From Lacipirellula parvula (GTDB lineage Bacteria > Planctomycetota > Planctomycetia > Pirellulales > Lacipirellulaceae), in contig NZ_AP021861.1 of assembly GCF_009177095.1 (NCBI RefSeq), positions 5,190,501 to 5,254,500 of the forward strand: a stretch of 64,000 nucleotides of DNA. The letters are read 5' to 3'. Position 1 is the first letter of the stretch. Each line of letters starts with the position of its first letter. The translations under genes were made by a program, and so were the position numbers. The notes under the pieces were generated by a model that was given only the letters and a program-made list of their open reading frames with translations, did no database searches and was not told the DNA's origin. Below, one piece after another: positions 3,358 to 41,258 of this stretch.

Positions 3358-6300
3358 GTGAATTCCTGGACCTACATCCGCGCGAGCTTACGGCAATACC
3401 GCCGCGTCCACCTCGCCGTCGCTGCCGGCGTCGCGGTGACGACGGCCGTCATCACCGGCGCGCTTTTGGTCGGCGATTCGATGCGCGGCAGCCTCCGCGA
3501 CCTGGCCCTCGGCAGCCTGGGGCGGATTGACTCGGTCCTCATCGCCGAGCACCCGTTCCGCGAAGAAGGCCTGCTGGCCGATAACGCCGATGTTAAAGCC
3601 GCTCCGCTGTTGCTGACGCAAGGCTCGGCGCTCTTCCGCGACAAAAAGGGCCAGTCGCACCGTGCCGCTCAGCTGCAAATCCTCGGCGTGACGCCCGAGT
3701 TCTGGCAGCTCGCCGAGCCGCCGATGCAGCCGCCCGTCGAGCGCGGCAACCAGATTGCGCTTACCGCCACCGTCGCGCAGGAACTCGGCGTCGCCGTCGG
3801 CGATGCGGTGCTGCTGCGGATTCCAATCATGAAGAGCATTCCCGCCGACAGCACGCTCGGCGAGAAAGAAGAAACGGCCGCCACCCGCCGGCTCACCGTG
3901 TCGGCGATTCTCGACGCCGACGATCAGGCGTCGCTTGCGCGGTTCTCAATGCGCCCGAACCAAACGGCGCCGCGCAACGCCTTCGTGCCGCTGGCGACGA
4001 TACAGAGCTTGCTTGATCTGCCCGATCAAGCGAACGGCCTAGCCATCACCGGCGACCTCCCGTTCGAGAACCTCCACCCAACGCTCGCCGACTTCGGAGT
4101 CACCGTAAAAGAGGTCGCCATCGCCGGCGAGCCCCGTTACCTACAAATCGCCGCCGACCGATTAGTGCTGCCGCCAGAATTGGTCGCGATCGCCAAACAA
4201 CTTGACGGCGAGCGCGGCCTGCAGCCGGTCGTCACCTACCTCGCCAATCGCATGTCGGCCGGCGACCGCCGCGTCCCTTACTCGACGATTGCCGGCGTCG
4301 ATTCCACCGCCGCACTCGGCCCCGTCATGGACGAACAAGGCCAACCAATCGAACTCGCCGATAACGAAGTCGCGATCAACGATTGGACTGCGAACCAACT
4401 CGACGTCGCCGTCGGCGACGAGGTGACGTTCACTTGGTACGATCCCGAAACGACGCATGGCGAACTGCGCGAGCACGCTCCGCTGACACTGAAAGTGCGG
4501 GCGATCTTGCCGCTGGCCAACGCCGACGGCAAACCAACGGCTGCTGCCGATCCCGACTTTGCTCCGGAACTCCCTGGCGTCACCGATCAGGCGTCGATTA
4601 ACGACTGGGAGCTGCCGTTCGATCTCGTCGAAACGGTTCGCGACGAGGACGAAAAATACTGGGATGACTACCGCACGACGCCGAAGGCGTTTGTTTCGCA
4701 CGCATTGGCGGCCAAACTTTGGAGCACACGCTGGGGGACCGATAGCGTGCTGCGTTTGCGACTGGGCGATGGTGCGACGGTTGAGTCGGTCACGTCGGCG
4801 CTCGAGCAGAGCCTCAACCCCAGAAAGCTCGGCATGTCACTCGTTGCCGTGCGGCAAAACGCCCTCGCCGCCTCCAGCGGCACGACGCCTTTTGACGGGC
4901 TATTCCTCGGCTTCAGCTTCTTCCTGATGGCGTCGGCGGTGATGCTGACCGCCCTTCTCTTCCGCCTCGGCGTCGAGCAACGGGCCCGCGAAGTCGGCCT
5001 GCTCGAAGCCCTCGGCACGTCCCTCAAAAAGCTTCGGCGACTGCTGCTCGCCGAGGCGGCGATTGTCGCAGCCGTCGGCGCCCTCGTCGGCGTTGCGCTC
5101 GGCGTCGGTTACGCACGGCTGATGGTCCATGGGCTCAACACCTGGTGGGTCGCCGCGACGGCCGAACCATTCTTGCGGTTGCACGTCACGCCGCGCAGCC
5201 TCGTCATCGGGTTCGCCGTCGGCGTGCTGGTCGCGCTGGCGACGATCGCCTGGTCGCTGCGGCGATTCGCCAAACTCCCCGCCCGGCAACTCTTGGCCGG
5301 CGATGCTGAACCGGCGCTACCGACAAAGGGCGCCAGCCGTTGGGCCGGAACCTGGCTCCCCATCGGCGTCATCGCCGCCGCGCTGGGACTCGCCGCCGCA
5401 GCCTCGAAGCTGGAGGGGGAAGCCCAAGGAGGCGCCTTTTTTGGTAGCGGAACGCTCGTGCTGATCGGCATCCTCGCCGGCATCCGCGGCAGGCTGCGGC
5501 GGCCGGTGGTCGGTCGGCCAACGTCGCTAAACCTCGGCGGCTTGGCCGCTCGCAACGCCCGGCGGAATCCGAGTCGCACGATGCTCGCCCTCGGGCTCGC
5601 CGCCACGGCCAGCTTTCTCATCGTCGCGATGAGCGCATTTCGCTTGGCGCCAACCGAACGGGGCGTCGGCGGTTTTGATCTGCTGGCGACCGCCGATTTG
5701 CCGGTGCTGTTCGATCTTGGGAGCGAGTCTGGACGGCGCGAGCTTGGCTTCTCTGCCGACGACGAAGCGAAGCTAAAAGATGCGACGATCATCAGCTTCC
5801 GCGTCCGCGACGGGCAGGATGCGAGTTGCCTGAATCTCTACAAACCGACGCAGCCGCGGATCCTGGGCGTTCCCCCAGAGTTAGCTACGACTAGCGATTT
5901 CGATTGGGCGGCAGCTCTCAGTCCCCCTCCCTTGCAGGGAGGGGCTAGGGGAGGGATTCCCAACGCATCCACCCCAAACGAGGCCACCCGCTCCAACGAA
6001 ACACCCCTCACCCAACCTCTCCCCTCGGGGGAGAGGTTGGGTGCGTGGTCTCTTCTCTCCGACACCCTCGGCAACGACGCCGATGGCCAGCCCATTGTCC
6101 CAATGGTCCTCGATCGCAACACCGCGTTTTACAGCTTGCAACTCTACGGCCTCGGCGAACGACTGGAAATCCGCGACGACGCCAATCAGCCCGCCGCACT
6201 CGAAATTGTCGGCCTGCTCGCTAATAGCGTCCTGCAAGGCGACGTCCTCATCGGCGAAGAAAACTTCGTGAAACTCTTCCCCGAAACCTCCGGCCGGCGG

Positions 6301-6819
6301 TTTTTCCTCATCCGCCGCGGCGCGAACTCGCCGCCGACCGCAGAACTCGCCGCACTCCTCGAAACGCAGCTCGAAGACTACGGCTTCGACGCCGTCGACG
6401 CCCGGCAACGGCTCGCCGAATTGCTCGCCGTGCAAAACACCTATTTATCGACATTCCAAAGCCTCGGCGCCCTCGGCTTGCTACTCGGCGTGGTCGGCCT
6501 GTCGGTGGTGCAACTCCGCAGCATTGTTGAACGTCGCGGCGAACTCGCCCTACTGCAGGCGACCGGTTTCCGCCGCCGCCGATTGGCAACGATGGTCCTC
6601 ACGGAAAATCTGGTGCTGCTAGTCGGCGGCTTGACGATCGGCAGCTTCGCCGCCCTCACCGCGGTGCTGCCCCACGCCCTCGCGGGGCAAGCGGGCACGC
6701 CCTGGCTGACGCTGGCGACGCTGCTCGCGATTATCACCGGCGTCGGGACGCTCGCCGGCTGGCTCGCCTCGCGGGCCATGCTGCGGGCGCCGTTGCTGCC
6801 GGCGTTGCGCGGGGATTGA
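3358..6819 (+). CDS. Large FtsX/MacB-type ABC transporter permease
   Basis: A 1153-residue inner-membrane permease. One transmembrane helix lies near residues 18-40, followed by a large external domain. A first FtsX core spans about 513-640 (FLMASAVMLTALLF, then RAREVGLLEALGTS), further helices lie near 660-700, a second external part follows, and a second FtsX core spans about 1030-1145 (RRGELALLQATGF). The duplicated layout matches lipoprotein-export or macrolide-type permeases that work with an ATPase, but no ATPase gene is adjacent. Start is GTG, without a clear ribosome binding site. Residues about 855-896 are encoded by an in-frame palindromic repeat (5920-6043) that interrupts the second external domain. 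Confidence 0.85.
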   Translation: MNSWTYIRASLRQYRRVHLAVAAGVAVTTAVITGALLVGDSMRGSLRDLALGSLGRIDSVLIAEHPFREEGLLADNADVKAAPLLLTQGSALFRDKKGQSHRAAQLQILGVTPEFWQLAEPPMQPPVERGNQIALTATVAQELGVAVGDAVLLRIPIMKSIPADSTLGEKEETAATRRLTVSAILDADDQASLARFSMRPNQTAPRNAFVPLATIQSLLDLPDQANGLAITGDLPFENLHPTLADFGVTVKEVAIAGEPRYLQIAADRLVLPPELVAIAKQLDGERGLQPVVTYLANRMSAGDRRVPYSTIAGVDSTAALGPVMDEQGQPIELADNEVAINDWTANQLDVAVGDEVTFTWYDPETTHGELREHAPLTLKVRAILPLANADGKPTAAADPDFAPELPGVTDQASINDWELPFDLVETVRDEDEKYWDDYRTTPKAFVSHALAAKLWSTRWGTDSVLRLRLGDGATVESVTSALEQSLNPRKLGMSLVAVRQNALAASSGTTPFDGLFLGFSFFLMASAVMLTALLFRLGVEQRAREVGLLEALGTSLKKLRRLLLAEAAIVAAVGALVGVALGVGYARLMVHGLNTWWVAATAEPFLRLHVTPRSLVIGFAVGVLVALATIAWSLRRFAKLPARQLLAGDAEPALPTKGASRWAGTWLPIGVIAAALGLAAAASKLEGEAQGGAFFGSGTLVLIGILAGIRGRLRRPVVGRPTSLNLGGLAARNARRNPSRTMLALGLAATASFLIVAMSAFRLAPTERGVGGFDLLATADLPVLFDLGSESGRRELGFSADDEAKLKDATIISFRVRDGQDASCLNLYKPTQPRILGVPPELATTSDFDWAAALSPPPLQGGARGGIPNASTPNEATRSNETPLTQPLPSGERLGAWSLLSDTLGNDADGQPIVPMVLDRNTAFYSLQLYGLGERLEIRDDANQPAALEIVGLLANSVLQGDVLIGEENFVKLFPETSGRRFFLIRRGANSPPTAELAALLETQLEDYGFDAVDARQRLAELLAVQNTYLSTFQSLGALGLLLGVVGLSVVQLRSIVERRGELALLQATGFRRRRLATMVLTENLVLLVGGLTIGSFAALTAVLPHALAGQAGTPWLTLATLLAIITGVGTLAGWLASRAMLRAPLLPALRGD
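5920..6043 (+). repeat. GC-rich palindromic repeat inserted in frame in the permease gene
   Basis: Two hairpins (CCCCTCCC...GGGAGGGG at 5922-5944 and CCTCTCCCC...GGGGAGAGG at 6016-6037) separated by about 70 bases. The segment is translated as a Pro/Gly-rich insert including SPPPLQGGARGG and PLTQPLPSGERLG. The intergenic element at 20333-20430 has related CCCCCTTGAGGGGAGGG arms, which supports a mobile origin. Confidence 0.75.
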
Positions 6820-20332: not shown

Positions 20333-20430
20333 GCTCCCTCCCCCTTGAGGGGAGGGCTGGGGAGGGGGTGGAACGCTGGCGCCCGCTTCTTTCACCCCTC
20401 CCTAACCCTCCCCCTCAAGGGGAGGGGACC
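20333..20430. repeat. CCCCTTGAGGGGAGGG palindromic repeat
   Basis: Left arm CCCTCCCCCTTGAGGGGAGG and right arm CCTCCCCCTCAAGGGGAGG pair over about 95 bases, and each arm is itself a hairpin. It lies between two convergent genes and resembles the element inside the permease gene at 5920-6043. Confidence 0.8.
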
Positions 20431-40658: not shown

Positions 40659-41258
40659 CTAACGAGGCTTCTGGTTCTGGTACCGCTTGTACGGCACGCC
40701 TTCGAGGAACGCTTTCAGTTCGAGCGCCCGCTTCACGCCGCGGTCGAGATCGATCGCCACTCTGGTGTGCGGATAATCGCGCCAATCGCTCGCAATCCCG
40801 TGCCGCACTGCTTGCCTGAGCGTGTACTTATACGCCTGCCGGCACTGCTTCTCGTCGCGAATAGCGCCGTCGAAGTAATCGCGATGGCCTTCCTCGCTCC
40901 AAAACGGCACGCGGCGTTCCGGCAGCGTGTCGTTCACCAGCTTCGCGACCGAACCGTGAACGCGTTGCATCATTGGGCCGAGGTTCTTGCCGATGCGTAG
41001 GTAACCGAGCGAGTGGTAGTGGTTATCGAGGAGGCTGGTGATCCACGGCACGAAGCCATACTTCGCGGCGTAGTGGTCGAAGCGACCCCAGAAGATCGCC
41101 TTCGCCTGCTCCGTTGCGAACGCGGGATGGCGTTCGCGGCAGCGGGCGGTGAGGAAGTACACCTGGTTGTCGATGTACCAGTGTTCGAAGCGGTGGCGGC
41201 CTTTGAAGTGCTCGACCGAAGAGGAGGAACTCTTTTGGATTCGCTTGAAGTCGCTCAT
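40659..41258 (-). CDS. REP-associated tyrosine transposase (Y1/HUH, IS200-like)
   Basis: 199 residues of the Y1 transposase family. The HUH metal motif appears as NHYHSLGY, and the catalytic tyrosine is likely in QAYKYTLRQAVRHGI. DNQVYFLTARCRE at the N-terminus and FWSEEGHRDYFDGAIRDEKQ are further family landmarks. Such RAYT proteins nick and join single-stranded palindromic repeats. The gene lies between two identical 26-base palindromes 35 and 16 bases from its ends, the arrangement expected of a RAYT with its own REP sequences. It appears intact. Confidence 0.85.
   Translation of the reverse strand: MSDFKRIQKSSSSSVEHFKGRHRFEHWYIDNQVYFLTARCRERHPAFATEQAKAIFWGRFDHYAAKYGFVPWITSLLDNHYHSLGYLRIGKNLGPMMQRVHGSVAKLVNDTLPERRVPFWSEEGHRDYFDGAIRDEKQCRQAYKYTLRQAVRHGIASDWRDYPHTRVAIDLDRGVKRALELKAFLEGVPYKRYQNQKPR

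Follow-up and report, generated by a model that had tools for sequence, protein, structure and literature searches.

The bacterial repeats that come closest to the element studied here, a palindromic sequence inside an FtsX-like ABC permease gene of the planctomycete Lacipirellula parvula, belong to four described systems. TM_ECO/PIT repeats number 3610 copies in 262 proteobacterial genomes; the 23 copies in Escherichia coli MG1655 are always intergenic, five of five close inverted pairs join one type A unit to one of type B, and the published pattern, CCCTCNCCC-N3-6-GGGNGAGGG-N3-GGGNGAGGG, tolerates no more than one mismatched pair (Holder et al. 2015, PMC4666352). GTAG/CGTC REPs and their dimers occur inside many unrelated genes of Opitutus terrae, Rickettsia conorii and other bacteria, with Planctomycetes among the phyla that have tagged REPs; intragenic dimers or groups code for 20–30 amino acids and clusters for more, and the case was made that in loops they are neutral (Di Nocera et al. 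2013, PMC3733652). Rickettsia RPEs are palindromic elements of ~150 bp that have entered unrelated genes in frame; in R. conorii, nearly half of the copies are genic (PMC10969869, PMC3733652). REPINs are inverted REP doublets with a spacer that behave as the apparent unit, and in P. fluorescens SBW25, overlap with genes is seen for only 14 of 1067 of the most abundant REP 16-mers (Bertels and Rainey 2011, PMC3116915). Our element lies in a stretch of 64,000 nucleotides (contig NZ_AP021861.1, positions 5,190,501–5,254,500; hereafter the window) and belongs to a dispersed repeat family, here called family I.

Family I looks to be built like TM_ECO/PIT and may be kin to it: on the G-rich strand both have a C-stem, a short loop, a G-stem, a 3-nt loop and a mirrored second G-strand, an architecture by which family I would be triplex-capable. 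Where E. coli has a type A with a TTA loop and a type B with a CCG loop, paired in inverted orientation, family I likewise has two inverted types, and its type with mostly a TTA or TTG loop has one mirror mismatch, recalling the E. coli ‘type A mm’. Among 29 distinct family I units, the mirror symmetry was 8/8 in 17 and 7/8 in 12, shuffled tails reaching at least 7 in 9% of cases in a test run on the same units that were used to build the model. By tail base, 9 of 11 family I pairs combine types A and B, and the other two have a degenerate partner with a B-like stem. Nevertheless, family I is not a member of TM_ECO by the published pattern, since none of its 56 units, and none of the 54 copies of a second family described below, matches that pattern within one mismatch. 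The second family lies two substitutions away in 52 copies and three in the other two; in controls, 0 of 800 shuffles (40 units) fell below seven substitutions, and 4 of 3000 random 56-mers from the window, which may include the elements themselves, had seven or fewer (2, 3, 6 and 7). While the E. coli MG1655 copies are described as always intergenic, family I is found in frame inside genes at 13 of 45 sites.

The remaining systems share other traits with family I. GTAG/CGTC REPs, too, place repeats and dimers inside unrelated genes, but they are described as carrying their tag by the stem, where family I has CTAG, CTGG, CTAA, CCAA and others, and on this description the family differs; by reading, neither GTAG nor CGTC precedes the stem in any of the 29 distinct 32-nt family I units. 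RPEs resemble family I as palindromic elements in frame in unrelated protein genes (12 genes here) and differ from it in that its host is a planctomycete and no frame is preferred; the comparison with Rickettsia RPE made in an initial annotation of this DNA is apt as an analogy at the level of published descriptions. With REPINs, family I shares the inverted doublet with spacer, and it has no linked RAYT among the scanned loci. In-frame genic REPs and RPEs are already known, and a triplex-type family that is genic in a planctomycete is a variation on that theme; among the papers listed by searches of the open-licence literature, none was seen to describe intragenic triplex-type repeats or to place family I in Planctomycetes.

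An inverted palindromic doublet inside the permease gene

The feature in the permease gene is very probably an inserted GC-rich palindromic repeat of hairpin or triplex type, an inverted A/B doublet with TM_ECO/PIT architecture that occupies a permissive loop and is read within the protein. It consists of two palindromic units of 32 nt each, inverted relative to each other (window positions 5924–6036), inside the open reading frame (ORF) 3358–6819, with the following parts.

3358–6819, plus strand: FtsX-like ABC permease gene, 1153 amino acids; insert at about residues 854–895; PF02687 in two stretches
5921–6043, no strand assigned: whole inserted element, an inverted doublet of two palindromic units and a spacer; compared to the empty site, 41 codons are gained net
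5924–5955, minus strand: type A unit; stem 5924–5932/5936–5944, loop 5933–5935; covariance model E 1e-14
5956–6004, no strand assigned: spacer separating both units, by direct reading
6005–6036, plus strand: type B unit; stem CCTCTCCCC/GGGGAGAGG, one mirror mismatch; covariance model E 3e-13

Each unit comprises an 11-nt tail, a 9-bp stem and a 3-nt loop, and the tails of both units face each other. Direct reading of the type A unit places its G-strand at 5936–5944, a CTA loop at 5945–5947 and the mirrored second G-strand at 5948–5956, with a mirror match of 9/9. The hairpin arms 5924–5932/5936–5944 are paired at 9/9 positions, and the arms 6003–6024/6028–6049, each of 22 nt, are 91% complementary. 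RNA folding of 5918–6046 gave −65.4 kcal/mol; shuffled sequences averaged −49.6 (z −4.2), and 0 of 200 were as good. An Rfam scan of the window returned no family at gathering score. The two-hairpin palindromic element described in the initial annotation is confirmed by the arms, the fold energy and the genome-wide repeat family to which it belongs.

The permease frame is open throughout the element, and the 1153-amino-acid ORF contains no stops. Two conserved Trp codons enclose 46 residues in the window permease, as against five in the orthologues of the congeners G003 and G004, an alignment count that gives a net gain of 41 codons; the initial annotation had about 42 residues. An AlphaFold model of the permease (7-sequence alignment; mean pLDDT 56.2, pTM 0.41, insert blocks 26–34) was too poor to place the insert or to establish the external domain in which the initial annotation had put it.

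Permease matches were present in 39 of 39 genomes searched, our own genome counted. In G003 and G004, the closest congeners (81–82% identical), the site is a five-residue loop without the insert, the absence from close orthologues that had been proposed as a check; across 29 aligned orthologues the insert is absent from all 29, and the same insert at the same place in distant genera, which had been named as evidence to the contrary, was not seen among them. The loop itself is variable, since G001, G002 and G005 (three of the five congeners) hold extra residues of other sequence. The G002 filler, tested as a repeat, is unique in its genome. The G005 filler is partly another dispersed repeat, with 39 matches in G005 (itself counted), 29 in G004, 4 in G003 and 1 in G001, and none in G002 or the window genome, the matches being mostly to query positions 36–76; it also weakly matches the family I model (18.8 bits, E 6e-4). 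This repeat (L040 2272–2382) often occurs in inverted pairs. Further along, the G005 permease has a family I doublet of its own in frame at about residue 470 (47.1 and 24.3 bits; L040 3521–3621).

Comparison of the window permease with G003 or G004 gave dN/dS values of 0.13–0.15 upstream and 0.14–0.15 downstream of the insert, values that indicate purifying selection on the gene to either side of it.

Family I in other genes and other genomes

In the window genome, a single contig of 6.92 Mb, the unit pattern occurs 43 times, compared to 0 occurrences when reversed as a control. Covariance model scoring of 150 of 4217 first-look candidates yielded at least 70 units at E ≤ 1e-3 and at least 56 below 1e-5, the latter at 45 sites. 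Family I counts rest on the 56 units with E < 1e-5, the 14 weaker hits of the 70 being outside them, and the 45 sites leave out five loose-scan hits outside model units (835244, 3896058, 4951886, 6581602 and 6629834). Two units are present at 11 of the 45 sites, inverted in all 11. At E ≤ 0.1, 29 of the 37 genomes searched contain matches to the model, among them all six of the same genus. The permease element belongs to a repeat family beyond chance, and the genome search that had been suggested as a check found it in frame in 11 genes besides the permease. In total, 13 of the 45 sites (nearly one third) are in frame, in 12 recognisable genes, listed here with the basis for genic status and the state of the site in the congeners G001–G005.

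FtsX-like permease: as above
Glycosyltransferase (L137): domain models flank the insert on both sides; site empty in five of five congeners
PSCyt2/PSD1 protein (L138): domain models flank the insert on both sides; insert shared with G004 (53.6 bits) and, judging by the alignment only, apparently decayed in G003
HisD (L141): domain model spans the insert; site empty in G003 and G004; consensus unit in G005 (57.4 bits), decayed unit in G002 (24.2 bits)
MFS transporter (L146): domain model spans the insert; no unit in four aligned congeners
M20 peptidase (L148): domain model spans the insert; decayed in G004 (22.6 bits), and in G003 decayed by peptide alone
RNase R (L149): conserved flanks in congeners; G003 and G004 hold other filler of similar length
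RlmL (L130): domain models flank the insert on both sides; shared insert, with both halves present in G004 (28.3 and 22.0 bits) and one half in G003 (41.3 bits)
HI0933-type flavoprotein (L156): domain model spans the insert; site empty in G003 and G005, other filler in G001 and G002
Lhr helicase (L122): domain model spans the insert; a G002 unit (L196, 42.8 bits) lies in the same region, with other sequence
M56 peptidase, two sites (L155): conserved flanks in congeners for the first site
FlhF (L140): domain model spans the insert

The distribution at HisD suggests either that an older insertion has disappeared from the G003/G004 line or that this place was hit twice. The M56 ORF (L155 3435–8999; G000:C1 6653134 onward) is a 2103-amino-acid open frame with a 375-bp stretch of several units and one further unit, and M56-related stretches of all five congeners (L197, L198, L199, L205, L206) also give family I model matches. 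In RlmL, the linker on the left flank of the insert (L130, G000:C1 near 2550628; query ~793–830) apparently holds a second dispersed sequence, which matches many further places, often containing stops, in G003, G004 and the window genome.

The initial annotation had read the open frame as a sign of selection for in-frame copies, a view that the other genes do not bear out. Fourteen intragenic units, a count that omits the longer hairpins of RNase R and RlmL, use five of the six strand and frame combinations and code for no common peptide, so that selection against frame disruption suffices, without any peptide being favoured, and the survival of in-frame copies under purifying selection explains the data. 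Nor do intragenic units look older than the rest, because their model scores equal those of other units (median 52.6 vs 53.8 bits, p = 0.64). No out-of-frame intragenic copy was detected among the 45 sites. Two candidates for one were rejected as intergenic on reading: at 570194 the upstream ORF ends ~10 bp before the unit core, and at 4953631 the element marks the end of the upstream ORF and is followed by the next ORF with a signal-peptide-like start. Excluded from the intragenic count were ORFs without a Pfam hit (L128, L131, L116, L129, L152, L126 and L150), L134 (element upstream of a dehydrogenase start), L143 (upstream of the RF1 model) and L151 (a protease with an uncertain N-terminus); ORF L123 (site 1480119) lies outside the Pfam-scanned set.

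A second family, family II, offers a comparison within the same genome, its copy in the window being the following.

20335–20428, no strand assigned: family II copy, between genes by the coding-score test; architecture like that of family I; predicted single long hairpin

Kinship between the permease element and this copy, proposed earlier for 20333–20430, holds at the level of class through the similar architecture, but the two belong to separate families. The best 40 of 177 first-look family II candidates are 91–100% identical to the window copy (itself included) over nearly the full length, a uniformity that suggests recent spread in the window genome. Applying the same coding-score test to both families, we obtained 13 of 45 genic sites for family I and 0 of 54 for family II (Fisher p = 1.2e-5, or 3e-5 with 12), where the family II sample comprised the 40 best-scoring copies and those in stretches already fetched, older copies being under-represented. 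The 13 score-flagged sites equal the gene-confirmed set minus RlmL plus the unconfirmed L151, and the score table has 52 rows, two family I sites having two rows each. The scores that the coding model gives to right and wrong frames overlap. On average, 1.8 of 6 frames are open in family II as against 3.4 of 6 in family I (2.4 for dimers alone, 3.9 for singles), and fewer open frames may in part account for the contrast between the families.

Points against the insertion reading, and alternatives to it

A number of results weigh against the account of a triplex-type repeat inserted into genes, or narrow its reach. At the permease empty site no target-site duplication was read, and a few flanking codons also differ there. 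Downstream of the insert, omega between G003 and G004 is lower, at 0.08, and the window permease has more differences to G005 (80 vs 74 and 72 for the congeners) and to G002 (76 vs 68 and 68); to G001 it has fewer (69 vs 78 and 74 for G003/G004), upstream it has slightly fewer differences to outgroups than the congeners have, and over the three outgroups the counts show no marked acceleration of the window branch. Distances of the 56 family I units from the TM_ECO pattern are substantial, at 2 (n = 2), 3 (12), 4 (23), 5 (15), 6 (3) and 8 (1) substitutions, and when the window element was compared with 5426 E. coli genomes by distant BLAST, a single weak match (E = 4) came up. The second M56 site is called genic from its open frame and coding score, its right flank having no match in congeners; the coding-score cut-off of 24 was set after the scores were seen, and out-of-frame copies may be missed too, since the score misses low-score linkers, as it did RlmL. 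The high genic share of family I is also not general. In G010, from another genus, 1 of 37 sites is genic (p = 0.002 vs 13 of 45 in the window genome), in a sample of 34 loci and 38 rows out of 105 units, the single case being a family I doublet in frame in an isoleucine-tRNA ligase-like gene (L280 1501–1657). In G003, none of 13 sites is called genic by the coding score and 2 of 13 (RlmL, M56) are genic by orthology, a share not distinguishable from that of the window genome (p = 0.48). The coding score flagged two out-of-frame candidates each in G010 (L302, L308) and G003 (L275, L293); of two in-frame flags in G010, the one at L303 was dropped as a five-edit chance match in ordinary coding DNA.

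Also on this side of the balance is the lack of a linked transposase: none of 36 PF01797 loci scanned in 18 genomes (32 of 90 matches and four weak hits of the window genome) carries family I or family II in its flanks up to 1.5 kb. The same result bears on a reading of the element as a true REPIN whose movement depends on a Y1/HUH transposase of the RAYT system in trans. Its inverted doublets do match the REPIN layout as Bertels and Rainey give it (PMC3116915), and the window genome has eight PF01797 hits, four above the family cut-off; yet a REP flanked each RAYT examined in that study, and the missing linkage here weakens a simple REPIN reading, which we regard as doubtful. A weak PF01797 hit in the window itself (40878–41159, minus strand; E 0.07, below the cut-off) is probably not a transposase.

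The other alternatives concern the protein rather than the repeat. Selection of the Pro/Gly-rich peptide for some function in the permease would be in line with the frame being kept in every intragenic case found and with the longer loops of other sequence that the three congeners G001, G002 and G005 have at this place. We consider it very unlikely all the same, because frames and peptides differ between genes, the two nearest congeners do without the insert, and shared insertions decay; a benefit of the insert to the permease seems neither needed nor indicated. A pseudogene or mis-assembled permease, with the element tolerated in a dead gene, could be argued from the slightly higher number of downstream changes against two of three outgroups, the evidence being sequence data only, but an uninterrupted 1153-amino-acid ORF, the near-equal dN/dS on either side of the insert and the in-frame copies in the hisD, RNase R and FlhF genes make this extremely improbable. 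Finally, growth of a neutral variable loop by slippage, its likeness to the repeat stemming from GC-rich composition alone, would suit the varying loop length among orthologues and the unique G002 filler; against units at 45 sites, 43 pattern matches compared to none reversed, the E values of both window units and shuffled units that never come nearer than seven substitutions to the TM_ECO pattern, its probability is practically negligible.

Returning to the inserted triplex-type repeat as the preferred explanation, copies may reach new sites through a single-stranded hairpin or triplex that is copied during replication, or, alternatively, through a transposase acting in trans. Any insertion by which the frame is shifted or ended would be lost, and in-frame ones would be tolerated in exposed loops or between domains, as GC-rich units have few stops. 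Tolerated copies might then erode to ordinary Pro/Gly-rich spacer peptide or be deleted.

Repeat-coded segments and protein length in Lacipirellula

A broader proposal is that the triplex-type family serves Lacipirellula as a renewable source of linkers, by in-frame entry at exposed loops, inheritance with decay to spacer peptide, precise loss and independent colonisation of the same loop by different repeat families. The idea of precise loss comes from the hisD unit, absent in G003 and G004 and present in the window genome and G005. We put this forward as a rather unlikely extension; if true, housekeeping proteins across the lineage would gain in-frame segments and lose them again, a form of reversible variation of protein length.

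For gene callers and structure predictors, repeat-coded segments of this kind call for caution. The presence of two repeat families in one genome, one often genic and the other not, provides a contrast, and the coexistence of empty, intact and decayed sites among species makes it possible to test, with few congeneric genomes, in what way selfish repeats contribute to proteins. Such repeats can lengthen proteins: triplex-type repeats, so far reported as intergenic, are here predicted to be read through in genes that include those for histidinol dehydrogenase, RNase R and FlhF.
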